From assembly GCA_021789195.1 (NCBI GenBank), contig JAJYJU010000002.1:1-45249 (forward strand): a stretch of 45,249 nt of DNA. The letters are read 5' to 3'. The notes beneath the pieces were generated by a model. The model saw only the letters and a list, made by a program, of their open reading frames with translations, searched no databases and was not told where the DNA came from. Position numbers and translations under genes: made by a program. Positions 19,795-31,185 of the stretch are shown here, in pieces. Origin of the DNA: a bacterium (GTDB lineage: Bacteria > Patescibacteriota > Saccharimonadia > Saccharimonadales > UBA4665). Numbering within the stretch: position 1 is the first letter of the stretch; every line of letters begins with the position of its first letter.

Positions 19795-20361
19795 CTATTC
19801 TTTTGGTATTGCCTCAAATACCGATTTAAGCAGAGGATATACCTTCTTGCCGGCACCACGGACGGATTGAACTGGCCTATTAACTAACTGCTGGAACTTC
19901 CCAGGATCAATCAAACCGTCTTCTCCCATACAATCTCTTCTTATAATAGTTTCACAGGTACTTACTAGTCTTGGTGCAAAACCATAATCTTCGCAAATCT
20001 TCCTAAAGCTATCTATTGATATAGAGACTTTTTCCGGTAGCCTGACTGGTTCTTCTTGATGGTCCTCAATAGATTGCTGTACCATGCCTGTTGCATGGCC
20101 TAAAAATACAGACAATTGCTTTCTATCGCCGGAGTTACTAACTATTACTTCTATAGCATAATTTCTAAGTGGTTCTAAATCAGCCGAAACAGCTTCAGCG
20201 GGAATTACCCCATATAAATCAAAGTTGCAGAGCTCAGAAAGCATGCTACACATAGCTCTAGCCTTGTCTGGATTAGGCAGAACTTCTTCAATTTTCGCAT
20301 AGAGGTTTTCAAAACCCTGCACACGAAAAGTCTCAGGCGTACTAACCTCTGAAGGGTCCAT
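19795..20361 (-). CDS. Hypothetical protein
   Basis: A 188-residue soluble protein of unknown family starting MDPSEVSTPETF at ATG 20359-20361. An upstream ATG at 20385 is in frame, but the promoter TTGTAT-17-TATTAT ends six bases before 20361, so the shorter form on a leaderless message fits better. The sequence is acidic in its first half (YAKIEEVLPNPDKARAMCSMLSELCN) and ends with a basic stretch VRGAGKKVYPLLKSVF. It contains five Cys. It lies directly downstream of the terminator of the candidate small RNA. Confidence 0.65.
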   Translation of the reverse strand: MDPSEVSTPETFRVQGFENLYAKIEEVLPNPDKARAMCSMLSELCNFDLYGVIPAEAVSADLEPLRNYAIEVIVSNSGDRKQLSVFLGHATGMVQQSIEDHQEEPVRLPEKVSISIDSFRKICEDYGFAPRLVSTCETIIRRDCMGEDGLIDPGKFQQLVNRPVQSVRGAGKKVYPLLKSVFEAIPKE

Positions 20362-20367
20362 AGCAAT

Positions 20368-20396
20368 ATAATACAACAAAAGCATTAGAAATACAA
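20368..20396 (-). promoter_or_regulatory. Promoter giving a leaderless message for the gene at 19795-20361
   Basis: TTGTAT (20391-20396), 17 bases, TATTAT (20368-20373), then six bases to the ATG. It lies after the terminator at 20421-20449, so the gene is independent of the RNA upstream. Confidence 0.55.
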
Positions 20397-20893: not shown

Positions 20894-22417
20894 TTATATA
20901 TCGTTAAGGATCGTTATGTGTGCACCAAGTGAATTCAAGCGACTAGCCAAGTCTTCATAGCCGCGGTTAATTGTATAAACGTTTCTAAGCATAGATGTGC
21001 CAGGCGCCGCAAGCATGCCAATTAGTAACATGACAGCTGGTCTGATGCCGCTGGGGCTGACTAGATCAGCCGGTTTAAATTTAGTCGGACCGTTTACAAA
21101 AACACGGTGCGGGTCGGCCAACTCTAAATCAACGCCAATTTTTTTCATCTCGGTGAACATTAAGGCTCTATCCTCATAAATCCAGTCGTGTATTAGAGTG
21201 CGGCCTTTAGCTACTGCTGCAATAGGCACAAAGTAGGGCAAATGGTCGATGTTAAGACCGGGAAATACGTTAGGGTGAATTTTTTCTTTCGGAGCAATCA
21301 AGCTACCGTTATGTTTATGTATATGCAGATCAACTAACTCTGTATAACCGTTATCTGCCTTAAAGGGCTTAGACATGTCGTACTTAAGTCCCATCTTCTC
21401 TAATTTAAGTAATTCCAGTTCCAAGAACTCTATAGGAGCACGTTTAATGGTTATTGCCGAATCAGTAGTGACAGCTGCTGCTATAAAAGTCATTGCTTCT
21501 ACCGGATCTTCACTGGGTGAGTAGGTAACGTTACGGTTAATTTCTTTTAAGCCGTGTACGACTAAGGTGGATGTGCCAATTCCTTCAACCTTTACGCCAA
21601 GCTTGATTAGATAAAGGCACAAGTCTTGAACCGCATAATTAGCGCTAGCCATTTTAATCACAGATACTCCAGGTGTTAGCGCTGCCGCCATTAGTACGTT
21701 CTCAGTTGTTGTATCTCCGGATTCGTAAAGCACTACGTTGCGAGAAGGTAATTTTAGCTTGGTGCGCACAATGTAGTGTTCGGTAACGGTCTTAACGTCC
21801 ACGCCGTACTCTTCAAGAGCATAAAGGTGAGGAAGTACTGTTCGCCTCCCTAGTTCGCAACCTCCGGCGTAGGGAATAACAAACTCTTTTGAACGGTGTA
21901 TCAAAGGCCCGATAAACATTAAGACACTCCTAGTTCGCTTAGCTGCCTCATGATCAATTGAGGCTAGATTTAAGCGATCAGGTACTTTTATCACCAGATC
22001 ATTAACATTTTGCCACTTAATATTGACACCAATGCTTAACAAAACTTCTACAATACGGTTCACTTCTTCGATGCGAGCGACATTCTTTAGTGTTGTAGTT
22101 CCCTTGTTAAGTAAACTTGCGCAAAGTAAGCTTACGGCTGCATTTTTGCTAGTCTTAAGAGCAATTTCACCCTTAAGCTCGTGCCCACCATCTATTTTTA
22201 AATTAACTGCACTGCCAGTGATGCTAATAATCTGCTTATTTAAAACCTCGCTTATACGACCAAGTGTTTCAAGACTAAGATTCTGTCTGCCGTGCTCCAT
22301 TCGATTAACGGCTGATTGGGATGTAGATAATTGCTTGGCAAACTCGCTTTGAGTCATTCCACGCTGTTGTCGGATTTGAGATATTAACTGGCCTATCTGT
22401 TGGTTAGTTGAAGGCAT
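20894..22417 (-). CDS. murA: UDP-GlcNAc enolpyruvyl transferase (MurA) fused to an N-terminal XRE helix-turn-helix
   Basis: A 507-residue protein. Residues about 7-61 are an XRE/Cro-type HTH (LISQIRQQRGMTQSEFAKQ, SQSAVNRMEHGRQNLSLETL). Residues 71-507 are an EPSP-synthase-fold MurA, which adds enolpyruvate to UDP-GlcNAc as the first committed step of peptidoglycan synthesis. Catalytic features are kept: Lys91-Asn92 in TSKNAA and Cys187 in AGGCELGRR, with the C-terminal SGIRPA and INRGYEDL segments. Usual MurA has about 420 residues, so the extra length equals the HTH. The frame is continuous, with no sign of a join error. TTGCTA-18-TATAAC ends six bases before the ATG, so the message is leaderless. 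The HTH may autoregulate. Confidence 0.92.
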   Translation of the reverse strand: MPSTNQQIGQLISQIRQQRGMTQSEFAKQLSTSQSAVNRMEHGRQNLSLETLGRISEVLNKQIISITGSAVNLKIDGGHELKGEIALKTSKNAAVSLLCASLLNKGTTTLKNVARIEEVNRIVEVLLSIGVNIKWQNVNDLVIKVPDRLNLASIDHEAAKRTRSVLMFIGPLIHRSKEFVIPYAGGCELGRRTVLPHLYALEEYGVDVKTVTEHYIVRTKLKLPSRNVVLYESGDTTTENVLMAAALTPGVSVIKMASANYAVQDLCLYLIKLGVKVEGIGTSTLVVHGLKEINRNVTYSPSEDPVEAMTFIAAAVTTDSAITIKRAPIEFLELELLKLEKMGLKYDMSKPFKADNGYTELVDLHIHKHNGSLIAPKEKIHPNVFPGLNIDHLPYFVPIAAVAKGRTLIHDWIYEDRALMFTEMKKIGVDLELADPHRVFVNGPTKFKPADLVSPSGIRPAVMLLIGMLAAPGTSMLRNVYTINRGYEDLASRLNSLGAHITILNDI

Positions 22418-22423
22418 CAGATT

Positions 22424-22453
22424 GTTATACCATATATGATTTTAAAATAGCAA
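22424..22453 (-). promoter_or_regulatory. Promoter of the HTH-murA gene
   Basis: TTGCTA (22448-22453), 18 bases, TATAAC (22424-22429), six bases to ATG. The spacer contains CATATATG. Confidence 0.6.
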
Positions 22454-22543
22454 TAGTGTTTTGTTTTTGAGTTGTAAAATGCATTTTATTCCTTTTGTTC
22501 AATTGCTACAATAGCCACTAAGATCTTAAGGGAATCATATATG
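22431..22543. repeat. Inverted 11-base copies and a central palindrome between murA and glyA
   Basis: AATCATATATG lies at 22533-22543 across the glyA start codon, and its reverse complement at 22431-22441 inside the murA promoter spacer. Between them is the perfect 12-base palindrome AAAATGCATTTT (22476-22487). These are candidate operators in the divergent promoter region. Confidence 0.4.
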
Positions 22544-23812
22544 CAAGATAAAGCCGTAGCTAAACTTATTGCTGCCGAAGAAAAGCGTCAGAGTGAGGGA
22601 CTAGAACTTATACCTAGCGAAAACTATGTCAGTAGTGAAGTTAGGCAAGCGATGGGCAGCATATTTACTAACAAGTACTCGGAAGGATTTCCCGGTAAAC
22701 GTTATTACGGTGGTCAGGTTAACACTGATGCGGTGGAGAAATTAGCTATTGACCGCGCTAAAACCTTATTTAAGGCAGATCACGCTAACGTACAACCTCA
22801 CTCCGGGGCTCCTGCTAACGAAGCGGTTTATCATGCCTGGATGGAACCGGGTGACACCATAATGGGCATGGAGTTAAGCCACGGTGGCCACCTTACTCAC
22901 GGTCGCCCCGGTACTATATCTGCCAAGTTGTTTAATTTTGTGCGTTACGGCATAGATGACATTGAAACCGGAAAAATAGACTATGCTCAGATGCGTGAAA
23001 CGGCTCTTAAGACCAAGCCTAAGATTATTCTAGCCGGCTTCTCATCCTATCCGAGAGAGCTAGATTATGCAAAATTTGCTGCTATTGGCGAAGAAGTCGG
23101 TGCGGTCCTAATGGCAGATATGTCACATATTGCCGGTCTTATTGCCGGCGGAGTGCTTAATAACCCTTTTGATTTCGGTTTTCATATAATGACCACTACG
23201 ACGCACAAGACGCTCAGAGGTCCAAGAGGCGCCATGATTTTATCGCGGGGCATTGTAAGCAATCCATTAAAACCAGTAGATAAGACCATAGATAACCTAC
23301 CTACTTTAATTGACAGATCTGTCTTTCCCGGTTTGCAAGGGGGTCCTCATATGCACATTATTGCCGCAAAAGCGGTCGCTTTTTATGAAGCAGCTCAGCC
23401 AGCCTACAAACTGTATTGTGAACAGGTATTAATAAACGCCAAGGTTCTAGGTGACGAACTTATGAAACTTGGCTTTAAGTTAGTTACCAACGGAACGGAT
23501 AACCACATGGTTCTAGCTGACATTCAGACCAGTTTCGGGTTTGATGGTGGTGTGGCCGAGAAGACGCTTGATCGAATCGGGCTGACCTTAAATAAGAACG
23601 TTGTACCGGATGACCCCTTACCTCCGTTTAGACCAAGCGGTGTTCGTCTTGGTACGCCAGCAATTACCACTAGAGGGCTAAAAGAAGAGCATATGATAAA
23701 AGTTGCTCAGTGGATGCACAAGGCACTAAAAAGTCACAATGATGAAACTGAGCTTAATAAGCTTGCCAAAGAAGTTAAGCAGTTTGCCAGTGAGTTCCCC
23801 TTGCCGGATTAG
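22541..23812 (+). CDS. glyA: Serine hydroxymethyltransferase
   Basis: A 423-residue PLP enzyme that interconverts serine and glycine with tetrahydrofolate, supplying one-carbon units. The N-terminus has EGLELIPSENYVS and NKYSEGFPGKRYYGG. The cofactor lysine is in TTTHKTLRGPRG (near residue 223), and the end has PSGVRLGTPAITTRG. Everything needed is present and the length is normal. The start follows AAGGGA at seven bases. It diverges from murA and converges on murB with a four-base overlap of the ends. Confidence 0.97.
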   Translation: MQDKAVAKLIAAEEKRQSEGLELIPSENYVSSEVRQAMGSIFTNKYSEGFPGKRYYGGQVNTDAVEKLAIDRAKTLFKADHANVQPHSGAPANEAVYHAWMEPGDTIMGMELSHGGHLTHGRPGTISAKLFNFVRYGIDDIETGKIDYAQMRETALKTKPKIILAGFSSYPRELDYAKFAAIGEEVGAVLMADMSHIAGLIAGGVLNNPFDFGFHIMTTTTHKTLRGPRGAMILSRGIVSNPLKPVDKTIDNLPTLIDRSVFPGLQGGPHMHIIAAKAVAFYEAAQPAYKLYCEQVLINAKVLGDELMKLGFKLVTNGTDNHMVLADIQTSFGFDGGVAEKTLDRIGLTLNKNVVPDDPLPPFRPSGVRLGTPAITTRGLKEEHMIKVAQWMHKALKSHNDETELNKLAKEVKQFASEFPLPD

Positions 23813-24840
23813 CTTGGTAAAATCTGGGGCTCCATTACTAAATCTATCGAGAACTGATGTTTGACCTTGGCTTTAATTTCATCCGCAAAAGCCAATAGTT
23901 TTGTGGTTGAGTCTCCCGAGCGGTTGACCAATATTAATGGTTGTATAGGCCAGGTAGCAACACCTGACTCCTGGTCAAAATAATCCTTAAAACCAGCCTG
24001 TTCGATGAGCCATGCGGCAGGAATCTTAACTTGGTTATTCTCTGCGGGCCAGTTAGGGACCGATGGGTAGCGATCCTCGAGCGCAAGTAGCAAAGAGTTG
24101 TCTACGATTGGGTTGGCGAAGAAAGAGCCACAATTTGGTGTAACTTTAGGGTCGGGCAGCTTCTCCTTTCTTATCGTCATGACTGCCTGTCGTAAGGTGT
24201 CCGCACTGGCATCGGTAATTTTATGTTGTTCCAGGTAATTAGCTACTGCTGAATAATATGGTGGCATTGGTTTATTTCGGCTAAGCATCAGAGTAATTGA
24301 AGTTATTAAATAACGTCCCTTAGACGATGATTTAAAAATACTGTCCCTATATGAGAAGTTGCAATCTGATGCCGGTATAGTAACCATATTTAACGATTCA
24401 AGATCAAAGGCTGTTACAGTAGCCAAGGTTTGCGATAGTTCCTGTCCGTATGCGCCAACATTTTGTACAGGAGTTGCTCCGGCAGTTCCCGGAATCATAC
24501 TTAAGCATTCAATACCGGACAAGCCTAGTTTGACACATCTCTCTACTACCGTATCCCAAACTTCACCCGAACCAACCGAGACATATGTACCAAACTCACT
24601 ATCGCTCACAACTTCAAAACCCTTAATCCTATTAACAATAACCAGTCCAGGAAACCCTTCATCACGCCATATAATGTTGCTACCATGACCAATGACTACG
24701 ATTGGTATATTGCTGGATTTAGCACTTTTGGCCGCTTCGATTAATTGTTCCTGGCTTTCAGCAATGGCAAGATATGAAGCTGGACCACCAAGTCGCATAG
24801 TCGAGTAATCTTTAAGCGATATGTTCTTTTGTATTTCCAT
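23809..24840 (-). CDS. murB: UDP-N-acetylenolpyruvoylglucosamine reductase (MurB)
   Basis: A 343-residue FAD enzyme that reduces the product of MurA to UDP-MurNAc. FAD-binding stretches are VIGHGSNIIWRDEGF and MIPGTAGATPVQNVGAYG; the substrate loop FSYRDSIFK is present. The catalytic Ser is in NCGSFFANPIV and the C-terminal Glu in VMEPQIL. It resembles type I (Escherichia-like) MurB, with the PAAWLIEQAGFK segment. Its location three genes from murA gives the first two steps of muropeptide synthesis in one neighbourhood. Confidence 0.95.
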   Translation of the reverse strand: MEIQKNISLKDYSTMRLGGPASYLAIAESQEQLIEAAKSAKSSNIPIVVIGHGSNIIWRDEGFPGLVIVNRIKGFEVVSDSEFGTYVSVGSGEVWDTVVERCVKLGLSGIECLSMIPGTAGATPVQNVGAYGQELSQTLATVTAFDLESLNMVTIPASDCNFSYRDSIFKSSSKGRYLITSITLMLSRNKPMPPYYSAVANYLEQHKITDASADTLRQAVMTIRKEKLPDPKVTPNCGSFFANPIVDNSLLLALEDRYPSVPNWPAENNQVKIPAAWLIEQAGFKDYFDQESGVATWPIQPLILVNRSGDSTTKLLAFADEIKAKVKHQFSIDLVMEPQILPS

Positions 24841-24900: not shown

Positions 24901-25440
24901 ATGAATCAACCTTCATTTGGGCCACAACCTTTTATTAAGCTAGGGGAAAAACTAAAAGCCTTGCGCAAATCAAGCCAAGAGAGTCTGGCTGAAGTGTCTG
25001 GTGCCGTGGAGATTGAAGAGCATATTTTAGAGCGCTTTGAAACTGGCATGGATCGTCCTGACGAAGAAATCCTCAACTTGCTGATTAATCACTATCGCGT
25101 AAACGACCAGCGGGCTCTTCAGCTATGGGAACTGGCGGGCTATAGTGACAACGTTGATTTAGATATTGAAGAAGCAGTAACGGCAGCAAAGCAGCTAATA
25201 ATGGTCTTAGCAACTGATGGCCGTACCATATATACGGATAACGTGAACATTGACGTTAATAGTAAGGGTATGACCCTTAGCTTTTCTCAATCGTCTCCTA
25301 TAGGCAAGCCATTTACGGTGTCCCGTTTAGGTATGAGCTACGAAACAGCGCATGAAGTTCAAAAAGCTATAAACACTGCTCTTACGTATGCTAAATACGC
25401 TACTAAGCGCCCATTACTCCCGCCGGGAAAAAAAGCGTAA
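24901..25440 (+). CDS. Helix-turn-helix protein with a DUF3467-like C-terminal part
   Basis: A 179-residue protein. Residues about 12-68 read as an XRE/RodZ-type HTH (LGEKLKALRKSSQESLAEVSGAVEIEEHILERFETG). The second half (about 100-170) has IYTDNVNIDVNSKGMTLSFSQ and SRLGMSYETAHEVQKAI, which resembles the DUF3467 pattern of a beta-hairpin domain ending in a helix. It probably acts in the cytoplasm as a DNA-binding regulator, but no target is known. It diverges from murB. Confidence 0.7.
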   Translation: MNQPSFGPQPFIKLGEKLKALRKSSQESLAEVSGAVEIEEHILERFETGMDRPDEEILNLLINHYRVNDQRALQLWELAGYSDNVDLDIEEAVTAAKQLIMVLATDGRTIYTDNVNIDVNSKGMTLSFSQSSPIGKPFTVSRLGMSYETAHEVQKAINTALTYAKYATKRPLLPPGKKA

Positions 25441-26066: not shown

Positions 26067-27161
26067 TTAAGAACCGCCCGTGTAGCCGGCCACATAATGC
26101 ATTGTAAAATATCCCCACAAGATTGCCGATAGCACCAGCACCAACGAATAGGCAAGCGTAGAGCGCTTAAATTTGTTTAACAGCATTATTTGCAGGGGGA
26201 AATTAATAAGCATGTAACGCGGATATCCTGCAAAGTTTGTAGTTACAATTGGGAGTAAAACAAATAACAAACTATATAGGGCGAAGCTTTTGCGTCTTGA
26301 GTACCAATAAACGGTTGAGATTATGGCTAAAATAAATAAAACTAGCGCTATAGGAGACAGACTGTTAATCATGGGCTGAATAAAACTGCCGACAGCCCAT
26401 TTTAGGTGATGTTTTTGAGCGCTAATAAATGCAAACGGCTTATGTAACTTAATGCCTAAGTAGGTTACATATCCGATTAAGCCGACCATGCCACTGCCAG
26501 CAGCTACTAAAATCTGCCATAGCTTGGCCTTAGCTTCATACAAAACAGCGGCGACAAGTAAGATAATAAAAACCCCGTCTGGTCGCGTAGCGGTTGCCAA
26601 TCCGGTTAGTATGCCTGCTAGTATATAGCGGTTTTTAAGAGCAAAGTACAAAGCCCCTAAAGCTAGAAGAGTAAACAGACCTTCACTATACGTCGCAGCC
26701 AGAAACACTCCTGTTGGGAAAAACAAAAACAGTAACGCACCCATAACCGATGTAACCTTGTCATTATCAAAGTACTCTTTAAGTATTTTTAGGTAGAAGA
26801 TTAATGATCCAAATAGTGCCAGCCAACTTACCACAAGCCCGCTTATTAGAGGAGAGCTTACAAGAAACATTACTAATCTAATTGCTAACGGATAGAGAGG
26901 GAAAAACGCCACTAATGAATTATCAGTATAACCATGCTTTGCAATATGAAGGTAATGAATCCCATCCCACTCTGCCATAAAGTCAAGATGAGTGCCCGGC
27001 TCAGCATTATATCTGGCAGATGCAACATTACCTGGGATAGTTTGGTTAGAAATATGACCCAGCCCTAGGGTTAGTATTATGAAACCGGCAGCTAAAAAGG
27101 CAGCAACTAGTACTTGTCGCTTACTTATCCAATTAACTATCGTATTGATTTTATTTTCCAT
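26067..27161 (-). CDS. PIG-V-like GT-C glycosyltransferase
   Basis: A 364-residue polytopic membrane protein. Eight or more hydrophobic helices follow a short N-terminal segment. An extracytoplasmic loop near residue 60 carries EWDGIHYLHIAKHGY, then AFFPLYPLAIR, matching the WDG..Y..IA..GY and FFPLYP pattern of PIG-V/DUF2029 mannosyltransferases, which use polyprenol-linked sugars. The Asp of WDG is the probable catalytic residue. The acceptor is not known; cell-envelope glycan or protein glycosylation are both possible. Confidence 0.8.
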   Translation of the reverse strand: MENKINTIVNWISKRQVLVAAFLAAGFIILTLGLGHISNQTIPGNVASARYNAEPGTHLDFMAEWDGIHYLHIAKHGYTDNSLVAFFPLYPLAIRLVMFLVSSPLISGLVVSWLALFGSLIFYLKILKEYFDNDKVTSVMGALLFLFFPTGVFLAATYSEGLFTLLALGALYFALKNRYILAGILTGLATATRPDGVFIILLVAAVLYEAKAKLWQILVAAGSGMVGLIGYVTYLGIKLHKPFAFISAQKHHLKWAVGSFIQPMINSLSPIALVLFILAIISTVYWYSRRKSFALYSLLFVLLPIVTTNFAGYPRYMLINFPLQIMLLNKFKRSTLAYSLVLVLSAILWGYFTMHYVAGYTGGS

Positions 27162-27213
27162 AACCTAAAATCAATTATACGCATATAAGCCTGTCAAATA
27201 GATTAAGCAAAAG

Positions 27214-27219
27214 TATACT
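27214..27219 (+). promoter_or_regulatory. -10 element for the gene at 27228
   Basis: TATACT eight bases before the ATG, no Shine-Dalgarno; a leaderless or near-leaderless message is implied. Confidence 0.45.
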
Positions 27220-27227
27220 TAAACTTA

Positions 27228-27968
27228 ATGAATCTATTGCCAAAGCGTGTTTTAAAAAAAATTAATAGCCAGTTTGGTGAATTTAGTGTTGAAGAGCTTA
27301 CTTATAACGGACGCCCTTCAAGAGTACTGTTTAATGGTCCGCAACATTCTGCTCAATCCGGCATAGCATTAGACAATGACCCGAGAATGCTATTTGACTA
27401 CAACCAAAGCTTATTTGAACTAACTCAAGCCATGCAGCCAAAAAACATTTTAGTGCTAGGTGGTGGCGCCTTAACATTACCTTCTAAAATAGTCGAACAC
27501 CTAAGATCAAGCGAGATTGAAGTTATCGAGATTAATCCTGACCTAATTAAGTTGGCCACAGAGCATTTTGACTTTATCCCTAACCCCAGGTTAAAAGTTA
27601 TAGTTGACGATGCCTTTAAGGTTATAACTAAATTTCCTCCCAGTAGTTACGATTTAATCATTACTGATTTATTTAATGATCTTTCTACGCCAGATATCTT
27701 CTTAAGCTTAGACTTTGCAAAAGAGCTTAACCGAATTAAAAAAACCGAAGGAATCGTAGCGACAAATTGCATATCAGCACTTTCTGGGGATGAGTCTGAA
27801 CCAGCCCGTAAACTTTTAAGTGTATATAAAGAAGCAATTGGACCAGTTCGGATTGTTAAAGTTGAACGGCAATACCATATGAATCACACGCCACAAAACC
27901 TGCTTATTTTAGCTGGCCCTAACAGCAGCTCATTGCTGCCCGGTTTGGAAGAAGTTAACTTAGTTTAA
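27228..27968 (+). CDS. Spermidine-synthase-fold (class I methyltransferase-like) protein
   Basis: A 246-residue protein. It has the nucleotide-binding start ILVLGGGALTLPSKI, the acidic strand VEVIEINPDLIKLA, and VIVDDAFKVI with YDLIITDLFND, as in spermidine synthase and its many relatives. The N-terminal beta-domain is short. The acidic pair expected for aminopropyl transfer is in ITDLFND. Polyamine synthesis needs decarboxylated SAM, for which no gene is seen here, so this may be a relative with another substrate. It diverges from the glycosyltransferase gene. Confidence 0.78.
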   Translation: MNLLPKRVLKKINSQFGEFSVEELTYNGRPSRVLFNGPQHSAQSGIALDNDPRMLFDYNQSLFELTQAMQPKNILVLGGGALTLPSKIVEHLRSSEIEVIEINPDLIKLATEHFDFIPNPRLKVIVDDAFKVITKFPPSSYDLIITDLFNDLSTPDIFLSLDFAKELNRIKKTEGIVATNCISALSGDESEPARKLLSVYKEAIGPVRIVKVERQYHMNHTPQNLLILAGPNSSSLLPGLEEVNLV

Positions 27969-28044
27969 GTTGTCTTAGCTAGAATGTATTGGCAAACTCC
28001 TTATGTTTAGATTATGATTATTGTTAAGATTACCCATAGAAACA

Positions 28045-29415
28045 ATGTCAAAAAACATAATTGAAAAGACAATTGAGGCTCCAGCAGAAGCACTTGAATA
28101 TGGTATTGAGAGTGGTCAGAAACTTGCCCATAACCTTTCTTCAGGTAGTTATGGACAACCAATTAAAAAGGCTAAGGATTATTGGTACCTACTTGGTCCG
28201 GGCTTAACTACAGGAGCTTCTGACGATGACCCATCTGGTATAGCAACCTATTCTCAAGCTGGTGCGCAGACCGGTTTTGGTTTCCTCTGGACCGCCCTGT
28301 TTACCTTTCCTCTAATGGCAGTCATTCAAGAGGCCTGTGCCAGAATTGGTCTAGTCACTGGACGCGGCCTAGCATCTAATATTCGCCTACATTTCGGTAA
28401 ACGAACTCTTTATTGGAGTACCATTTTGCTGTTTGCGGCCAATACATTTAACATTGGTGCAGATATTGGTGCGATGGCTAATGCCACCCAGCTGGTATTT
28501 AATCTAAACACCACGTTATTAGTTATCGGCACAACTCTTTTCATATTGTTGCTACAAATATTTACTCCCTACGTTCGCTATGCAAAATATCTTAAATGGC
28601 TGGCTTTGGTCCTAATTGCTTATATAGCTTCAGCCATTCTCGCTAAACCGCACTGGTCAAGCGTGATTAGCGGAACTTTTGTGCCCCATATTAGTTTTAC
28701 TAAAAGTAATTTGATCTTGTTATGCGCCGTACTCGGTACAACAATTACACCCTACTTGTTTTTTTGGCAGACATCTCAGGAAGTAGAAGAACAAATAGCT
28801 CAAGGTAAACTGACTATTGCTGAGCGTCGTGGCAGTAATAAAGAAGCAGTTAAAAAAATGCGCATAGATGTCTGGTCGGGCATGTTTTTTTCAAATCTAG
28901 TAATGTTTTTTATCATTGCCGCTTGCGCCAGCGTTTTATTCTCGCACGGCATTACTCACATAGATACGGCGGCTCAAGCAGCTAAAGCGCTCCGCCCATT
29001 TGCCGGATCAGCCAGCTACTACTTATTCGCTGCCGGCATAGTTGGGATGGGCTTGTTAGCCATTCCGGTTTTAGCCGGATCCAGTGCTTATGCAATTAGT
29101 GAAAGCCTTGGTAAGAGGCAGGGTCTAAATTCCAAGCTAAAGCAAGGTTACGCTTTTTACGGCGTAGTTATTATCTCAATGCTGGTCGGTTTAGGCATAA
29201 ACTTTCTAGGAATTAACCCTATTAAGGCGCTTATCTACTCAGCCGTAGCCAACGGTATCGTGGCACCAATCATCTTAGTTCAGATTATGCTTTTAGCCAG
29301 GAACCAAAAAGTTATGGGAGAGTGGAAAAACGGCAAGCTAAGTGGGGCATTTGGTTGGATACTGGTAGGACTAATGAGTTTTTCCGGTGTAGCGGCGATA
29401 TACAGCCTGTTTTAA
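28045..29415 (+). CDS. NRAMP-related divalent metal transporter
   Basis: A 456-residue membrane protein with about eleven helices. A TTG start at 28021 is in frame, but ATG 28045 removes a non-conserved leader. TM1 contains SDDDPSGIATYSQ (residues 59-71), where NRAMP transporters have the DPGN motif, and TM6 has GTTITPYLFFWQ (near 231) in place of the MPH motif. So it belongs to the NRAMP superfamily but lacks the Asn and Met ligands used for Mn/Fe. Family members with altered ligands are known to carry Mg2+/Mn2+, which is a possibility here. Promoter: TTGGCA-18-TATGAT upstream. Confidence 0.85.
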   Translation: MSKNIIEKTIEAPAEALEYGIESGQKLAHNLSSGSYGQPIKKAKDYWYLLGPGLTTGASDDDPSGIATYSQAGAQTGFGFLWTALFTFPLMAVIQEACARIGLVTGRGLASNIRLHFGKRTLYWSTILLFAANTFNIGADIGAMANATQLVFNLNTTLLVIGTTLFILLLQIFTPYVRYAKYLKWLALVLIAYIASAILAKPHWSSVISGTFVPHISFTKSNLILLCAVLGTTITPYLFFWQTSQEVEEQIAQGKLTIAERRGSNKEAVKKMRIDVWSGMFFSNLVMFFIIAACASVLFSHGITHIDTAAQAAKALRPFAGSASYYLFAAGIVGMGLLAIPVLAGSSAYAISESLGKRQGLNSKLKQGYAFYGVVIISMLVGLGINFLGINPIKALIYSAVANGIVAPIILVQIMLLARNQKVMGEWKNGKLSGAFGWILVGLMSFSGVAAIYSLF

Positions 29416-29505
29416 ATATATTTAAGGTTTGACGTAAAACTGAGAAAATAGGATGTATTTTAGTGTGTTTTGGCATGACGCTTTTGCTATACTATTTTTT
29501 AGCAT

Positions 29506-31185
29506 ATGGAAGAACCAAAACAAGGACGCGACCGGGATGCTGCGTTGAACCGGAGGAACTTCTATATTGACGGCGTATCTAGACCTCCATCAAGAGATTC
29601 GCAGTATAGTCGTAGCAAGATACCAAGACCGCAGGTAAGACCAACCGCAAATATAAGTGACTTTAACTCCCCCAATCTAGCAAAACAGCAAGACATCAGC
29701 TTGCCTACCCAACCTCAACTCATGGATAGACCTTCGCAGAGTACGACACCTGACCAGTCACTGCTTAACATGTCTTTGCCTAAAGACATAGCGCGCCATA
29801 GGCATAAACCAGCCACTAAACGAAAGTCGCGTGGCAGGCGAATTGTAAAATATAGCCTACTAAGTTTGGCCGTTATTTTAATTGGCGGTGGCATATACTA
29901 CGGTTCGTCTATCATCAGCAATGTTAATAAGGTGTTTCATGGCAATGTATTCTCGGATGTTCATGCAATTTTTAGTGGTAGCAAACTAAAAGAGTCTAAC
30001 GGTAGAATTAATATCTTACTAGCCGGAGATTCAGTAGACGATCCGGGACATCAAGGAGCTATACTAACCGACTCAATCATGGTCATTAGTTTTAATCCGA
30101 CAACTAAAAGTGGTTTTATTCTAAGTATACCCAGAGATTTATGGGTAGACATTCCCAGCTGGGGTCATCAGAAGATAAATGCCGCAAACGCAGTTATTAA
30201 TTTTTCGCAACCAGGTTACCCAAGTGGCGGTATTGGCCAGCTCCAACAAATTGTTCAAACAGATTTGGGCATTCCAATAGATTATGAAGCAACCATTGAC
30301 TATACAGCCTTTAGAGATGCCGTTAATGCTGTCGGCGGCATAACAATAGATATTCAAAGTCCTGATCCGCGTGGCCTATATGACCCATACACGCATCTGA
30401 AACTACCAAATGGAGAAGTTACCTTAACTGGTCAGCAAGCGCTTGATCTCGCCAGATCTAGAGGCGACGGACCTGGTGCATACGGCTTTCCAACAGCCGA
30501 CTTTACCCGGACTCAACACCAGCGCCAAATGCTAGTTGCGCTATTTAAGAAATCTCTTTCAATTGGAGTTTTGTCTAACCCGGTTAAAGTTGCTAACTTA
30601 TTTAATAGCTTCGGTAATAACGTAACAACTAATTTAACCCTGGGCGATGTTACCTCTCTGATTCATGCAACCGGTGGTATAAGTCTAGCTAACCTACAAT
30701 CTGTCTCCTACGCCTATGGCGGGACGAATGCCTTACTTCAAAGTTACTTAGCACCTGACGGAGAAGATGCTTTAATACCAACCTTGGGCATAGACAATTT
30801 TACAAATATCCAGGCGTTTTATCAGCAACTGACATCATCGAACCCAATCACGCAGGAAGCGCCTACAGTCACAATTTTAAATGCCAGTGATGTTACTGGT
30901 TTAGCCTCCCGCGAAAAAACGGTCTTAGAGGCACAGGGTTTTAATGTTCTAGACGTTTCCGATGCCAGCACGGTATACCCTAAATCTTTAATAATAGATA
31001 ACTCTAGCGCTGCTAAACCAGCCTCGCTTACTAAACTGAAGAACGATATTAAAGGGCAGGTCACATCTTCTGTAAGTTCATCAAACGAAGCTAGTGAAGC
31101 AGCTAATTACAGTACTGACTTTGTAGTTGTTCTAGGCCAGGACTGGGATAATACACCTGCTACTGGTAATCCAATTCAAAACTAG
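29506..31185 (+). CDS. LCP (LytR-CpsA-Psr) family protein with LytR_C domain
   Basis: A 559-residue protein. An N-terminal cytoplasmic tail of about 110 residues (Arg/Pro/Gln-rich) leads to one membrane helix (about 116-137). The LCP domain follows (about 165-320) with RINILLAGDS, HQGAILTDSIMV, SIPRDLWVDIP and GQQALDLARSRGDGPGAYG, including the conserved Arg and Asp residues. The C-terminus has a LytR_C domain with VTILNASDVTGLA. LCP enzymes transfer glycopolymers from lipid carriers to peptidoglycan or proteins. The long basic tail is unusual. TATACT lies 12 bases before the ATG. Confidence 0.92.
   Translation: MEEPKQGRDRDAALNRRNFYIDGVSRPPSRDSQYSRSKIPRPQVRPTANISDFNSPNLAKQQDISLPTQPQLMDRPSQSTTPDQSLLNMSLPKDIARHRHKPATKRKSRGRRIVKYSLLSLAVILIGGGIYYGSSIISNVNKVFHGNVFSDVHAIFSGSKLKESNGRINILLAGDSVDDPGHQGAILTDSIMVISFNPTTKSGFILSIPRDLWVDIPSWGHQKINAANAVINFSQPGYPSGGIGQLQQIVQTDLGIPIDYEATIDYTAFRDAVNAVGGITIDIQSPDPRGLYDPYTHLKLPNGEVTLTGQQALDLARSRGDGPGAYGFPTADFTRTQHQRQMLVALFKKSLSIGVLSNPVKVANLFNSFGNNVTTNLTLGDVTSLIHATGGISLANLQSVSYAYGGTNALLQSYLAPDGEDALIPTLGIDNFTNIQAFYQQLTSSNPITQEAPTVTILNASDVTGLASREKTVLEAQGFNVLDVSDASTVYPKSLIIDNSSAAKPASLTKLKNDIKGQVTSSVSSSNEASEAANYSTDFVVVLGQDWDNTPATGNPIQN

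Follow-up and report, generated by a model that had tools for sequence, protein, structure and literature searches.

A MurA-type enzyme fused to an XRE DNA-binding domain has a conserved, predicted operator at its own promoter in Patescibacteria and Actinomycetia

MurA, the target of fosfomycin, catalyses the committed step of peptidoglycan synthesis; the enzyme closes when UDP-GlcNAc binds. BirA and PutA are enzymes that double as repressors and are gated by their substrate. Many XRE/HTH_3 autorepressors bind palindromes at their own promoters (PMC12565409). In Streptomyces, murA2 (SCO5998, sven5810) is described as developmentally regulated, with a BldM-WhiI footprint (PMC4125116), SCO5998 is SigB-dependent (PMC8346170), and a further study also treats murA2 as developmentally regulated (PMC12161575). 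A search of one literature library for an HTH-MurA fusion found no paper.

The fusion described here is encoded on a contig from a Saccharimonadales bacterium (JAJYJU010000002.1), of which the whole analysed stretch of 45,249 nucleotides is referred to as the window. On the minus strand, positions 20894..22417 (ATG at 22417) form a frame of 507 codons with no internal stop. Its 507-residue product carries an XRE/HTH_3 DNA-binding domain at residues 12-62 (22232..22384, minus strand; Pfam E-value 9.4e-14, 51.6 bits against a Pfam cut-off of 23) and a MurA-type EPSP_synthase domain at residues 76-492 (20942..22192, minus strand; Pfam E-value 2.6e-41, 142 bits). The original prediction, which had read this gene as a single uninterrupted 507-residue frame joining an XRE helix-turn-helix to MurA and had proposed a domain search as a check, is therefore confirmed by the open reading frame and by the HTH_3 and EPSP_synthase matches within it; the catalytic Lys and Cys that it described as intact are present as K91 and C187. 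In the AlphaFold2 model (mean pLDDT 88), the HTH consists of four helices, and a short flexible junction at residues 65-72 (22202..22225, minus strand), with pLDDT below 50 at residues 65-68, links it to the enzyme. The recognition helix, T32-S33-Q34-S35-A36-V-N38-R39 in the window protein, is nearly invariant across 97 fused proteins, and the HTH and the enzyme are conserved to the same degree (entropy of 1.07 versus 1.09). Since the fusion is found uninterrupted and with an identical junction in more than 100 independent loci, a sequencing error that merged two separate genes is excluded.

The original prediction had called this kind of fusion uncommon, a view that does not hold in a survey covering Patescibacteria and Actinomycetota, because it is the rule in its own order and frequent in Actinomycetia. 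Among the 61 genomes covered at genus, family and order level, 54 had a full-length, one-frame fusion, absences being mostly attributable to incomplete assemblies or broken contigs. Sampling of 380 Patescibacteria genomes gave 53 full-length fusions, 21 MurAs of the same subfamily lacking the HTH, and a canonical MurA in most of the others. About a third of the sampled Actinomycetia genomes (94/297) carry the fusion, split in three of them. One contig scan relied on exact matches to short stretches of the window protein and detects close relatives only. No MurA-like match was obtained in three Patescibacteria genomes of family f36 (G065, G088 and G192), each complete on a single contig and about 0.8 Mb long; these cells possibly live without peptidoglycan precursor synthesis of their own.

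An 18-bp palindrome precedes the murA start codons, with the consensus TATATCA-N4-TGATATA in Patescibacteria and TATCTCA-N4-TGAGATA in Actinomycetia, at a median distance of 11 bp from the start codon in both. This operator of the HTH-MurA fusion is new here. In the window, the predicted operator (22426..22443, minus strand; AAAATCA-TATA-TGGTATA, i.e., AAAATCATATATGGTATA) ends 8 bp before the murA ATG and is a weaker, less symmetric variant (4/7 pairs) with 11/14 half-site matches to the Patescibacteria consensus; an actinomycete operator fragment reads TATCTCATATCTGAGATA. At least 11/14 half-site matches were found in all 28 Actinomycetia loci (0.4% of shuffles) and at least 12/14 in 96% of them (0% of shuffles), compared with 57% of 92 Patescibacteria loci at the latter threshold (0.4% of shuffles) and none of 15 non-fused relatives. 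The left half of the palindrome matched 5.1/7 positions at murA versus 2.0/7 at 2,618 other TGATATA-like sites (p = 1e-33), and its enrichment at murA was also evident against TGATATAAT-like sites (p = 6e-27). Dinucleotide shuffles, non-fused relatives and this right-half comparison served as controls, and together they rule out an artefact of AT-rich DNA. The palindrome is conserved on the gene's own promoter across three lineage groups.

Several loci show variant arrangements. In three Actinomycetia loci (L239, L241, L261) the operator is mixed: its left half resembles the Actinomycetia form (GCTCA, ACTCA or TCTCA), whereas its right half is TGATATA. A subclade of Saccharimonadales family f26 (L249, L252, L253, L255) has an asymmetric one with TATGCA or similar on the left and TGATATA on the right. 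Patescibacteria lineage f46 (L111, L112, L114, L115, L117) carries another operator-like palindrome some 60-95 bp upstream of the murA start, which suggests cooperative binding or a second promoter. Long perfect inverted repeats lie between glyA and murA in L032, L044 and L045, two of them centred on GCGATCGC (as in CTAATAGATTATGCGATCGCATAATCTATTAG).

Read directly from the sequence, a putative -10 element, TATAAC (22424..22429, minus strand), overlaps the right half of the window's operator and would yield a nearly leaderless murA mRNA. A scan of the 200-bp intergenic stretch for a consensus sigma-70 promoter gave no site, and the promoter position is therefore taken from the conserved -10-like overlap only. 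Because the right half of the operator in general overlaps a -10-like TATAAT, binding should block transcription.

The operator disappears together with the HTH. It was found in 49 of 56 entries with an intact HTH and in none of 16 without (Fisher p = 6e-11, relatedness ignored); of the seven HTH-intact entries below threshold in the -70 search region, three have a site further upstream. The recognition helix has decayed and the operator is gone in one Patescibacteria locus (L134) and two Actinomycetia loci (L257 and L259), and the two loci in which S33 is replaced by Thr (L109 and L243) share the left half-site TATAGC. A test on independent pairs gave three pairs on well-supported branches, which agree in most pairings and are too few for sign-test significance. 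In the L257 and L259 genomes the enzyme is retained as the sole MurA despite the decayed HTH, suggesting that the enzyme is indispensable and its regulation optional; the L257 copy of the fused gene is split over two frames, by either a real frameshift or an assembly error. As far as sequence comparison can tell, this operator, which is conserved at the promoter and vanishes with the HTH, strongly supports the prediction that MurA is coupled to DNA binding at the murA gene.

As the operator is nearly unique in actinomycete genomes and absent when the HTH is lost or decayed, we consider the protein very probably to be a bifunctional enzyme and single-target autorepressor of its own gene. Its C-terminal part would be the cell's only UDP-GlcNAc enolpyruvyl transferase, and its N-terminal XRE domain would bind, as a dimer, the 18-bp palindrome across its own promoter. 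Once enough enzyme is present, two copies would fill the operator and block RNA polymerase, a single-target negative feedback that would keep the MurA concentration at a set point. We infer here that the protein binds DNA, dimerises, represses rather than activates, and has MurA activity. If true, such one-gene feedback would be a direct and testable answer to the question of how cell-wall output is set in reduced epibionts that lack large regulatory networks, and since actinomycete orthologues can stand in, the 18-bp operator offers a ready DNA-binding assay for bacteria that are hard to culture.

It is also possible, although we hold this only tentatively, that the repressor is gated by ligand. 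Binding of UDP-GlcNAc or PEP would then close the MurA domain and alter the pairing of the HTHs, so that operator occupancy would report substrate supply rather than the amount of enzyme. The short junction between the domains, the retained catalytic residues, which would allow a ligand to bind, the closure of MurA upon UDP-GlcNAc binding and the precedents of BirA and PutA all speak for such gating. However, the junction is modelled as flexible, which disfavours rigid coupling, and plain concentration feedback accounts for everything seen.

A wider regulator, acting also on glyA or on other cell-wall genes, appears improbable. The original prediction had included control of glyA, which encodes a serine hydroxymethyltransferase (22541..23812, plus strand; Pfam SHMT E-value 1e-152) and is a conserved divergent neighbour, lying within 400 bp of murA in 53 of 57 environmental Saccharimonadia loci. 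However, the predicted operator is separated by 8 bp from the start of murA and by about 100 bp from that of glyA, at the murA rather than the glyA promoter, and it persists in lineages in which glyA does not adjoin murA; glyA is therefore not supported as a target and is probably none. In 20 actinomycete genomes searched with up to three mismatches, a site was present at the gene itself in all 20, with four further sites (three mismatches each) altogether, leaving a single site in most genomes, and in 20 Patescibacteria genomes all perfect sites were at murA. The genome of the window has four other sites with three mismatches, one of them 27 bp before a ychF-like start, which could speak for a larger regulon, but on inspection these sites belong to unrelated genes and form no coherent regulon.

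Beyond glyA, the gene for the next pathway enzyme, murB (23809..24840, minus strand; Pfam MurB_C E-value 4e-18), is also a frequent neighbour, some 2.4 kb away from murA in 50 of the 57 environmental Saccharimonadia loci. A second XRE-like protein is encoded divergently 60 bp from murB (24901-25440, plus strand; HTH_31 just below the Pfam cut-off, with no domain assigned to the C-terminal half) and might regulate it. Envelope genes for a PIG-V-like mannosyltransferase, an Nramp transporter and a LytR-CpsA-Psr protein are found near murA and murB (26067-31185), and a 196-residue open reading frame with no Pfam match (19795-20385, minus strand) sits between tRNA-His and a tRNA-Arg/tRNA-Gly pair.

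We then consider the enzyme half itself. Its catalytic residues in the window are K91, R163, C187, R192, D304, D391, R417, R459 and R485. Across 121 fused sequences there is no variation at the equivalents of E. coli K22, N23, R91, C115, R120, D231, D305, R331, R371 and R397, and K22, R91, C115, R120, D305, R371 and R397 (E. coli numbering) are invariant in 15 non-fused relatives as well. Throughout the subfamily, the residues equivalent to the UDP contacts of E. coli MurA (P121, D123, K160, S162, V163, G164) and to D369 are replaced, a conserved YESGDT segment standing in place of the UDP-contacting residues; canonical actinomycete MurAs vary at K160 too. The window protein reaches 300.1 bits against the TIGR01072 equivalog, below the cut-off of 392.7, and 315.5 bits against the broader PRK09369 model, above the cut-off of 297. 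For these reasons we call it a divergent MurA-type enzyme, a subfamily not filed under the equivalog, and treat catalysis on UDP-GlcNAc as presumptive. The same replacements and the missed TIGR01072 cut-off could mean that the enzyme is not MurA and transfers enolpyruvate to another sugar or nucleotide, which we judge very improbable, as its best solved relatives are MurAs by both sequence and fold (Foldseek, TM of about 0.9 to MurA crystal structures), with scores well above those to AroA and NikO. In addition, the window gene is the sole member of the EPSP/MurA family in its genome (0.67 Mb, 95% complete), which also has murB and three Mur-ligase genes, and 14 of the 15 Actinomycetia genomes checked have just one further member of the family, with an AroA-like score, and gave no canonical MurA. 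Being the sole family copy in peptidoglycan-making cells argues that the fused protein would be the working MurA of its cell.

That the HTH serves protein-protein contacts or dimerisation, or is an evolutionary remnant, and that the palindrome is an ordinary extended -10 element, is highly improbable: the right half TGATATAAT does resemble an extended -10 and several lineages lost the HTH yet kept the enzyme, but the left half is retained at murA alone, the palindrome in Actinomycetia is of a GC type without TATAAT, the recognition helix is almost invariant and the operator is lost with the HTH or its recognition residues.

The actinomycete copies form one clade inside Saccharimonadia in both the MurA-domain and the whole-protein tree, the latter with support of 100/100 for the actinomycete clade and 99/99 for its union with Saccharimonadales family f26. 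Forcing Saccharimonadia to be monophyletic with Actinomycetia outside lowers lnL by 104 and is rejected (AU p = 4e-57). Because the basal diversity is Patescibacterial, transfer most likely proceeded from the Patescibacterial side. A phage or plasmid origin was rejected, as tblastn gave only canonical MurAs in phage records; the only replicons with fused copies were two very large actinomycete ones. The fusion is the only MurA in 14 of the 15 actinomycete genomes checked (with L057, L058, L060 and L155-L179 noted), and other genomes keep a canonical MurA, suggesting that a gene from an epibiont lineage may have replaced the native enzyme together with its operator. If so, this would be a rare example of a core-metabolism gene passing from an epibiont lineage into a host lineage. 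Cultured Saccharibacteria have Actinobacteria as their known hosts, and it is tempting to speculate that the donor lived as an epibiont on the recipient itself. The full scenario, in which a substrate-gated enzyme-plus-repressor unit arose in Patescibacteria and passed with its operator to Actinomycetia, often replacing the native MurA, is doubtful in its entirety.

Compared with described systems, the fused protein shares with MurA (PRK09369, TIGR01072; PDB 1UAE, 5UJS) the fold, the catalytic Lys, Cys, Arg and Asp residues and a genome with murB and Mur ligases. It differs from solved MurAs in an identity of only about 25% and an added N-terminal XRE domain, and from E. coli MurA in the replaced UDP-contact segment and D369 and a score below the equivalog cut-off. 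Streptomyces murA2, which may or may not be of the fused type, is a second MurA of Actinomycetia that has regulation of its own. With XRE/HTH_3 autorepressors such as lambda CI/Cro-like proteins and HipB, the fusion has in common the fold and a near-palindromic operator at its own promoter; in contrast to them, it carries an essential biosynthetic enzyme as its second domain, and a look at the genes next to it showed neither a co-encoded toxin nor prophage genes. A further parallel is with BirA (a biotin ligase) and PutA, each a single polypeptide that works as a metabolic enzyme and also represses transcription of a related gene; in the fusion, the own-promoter operator is lost together with the predicted DNA-binding function. 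Unlike BirA and PutA, the fused protein would act at the first step of peptidoglycan synthesis, belongs to another DNA-binding family and apparently has a single target, its own gene.
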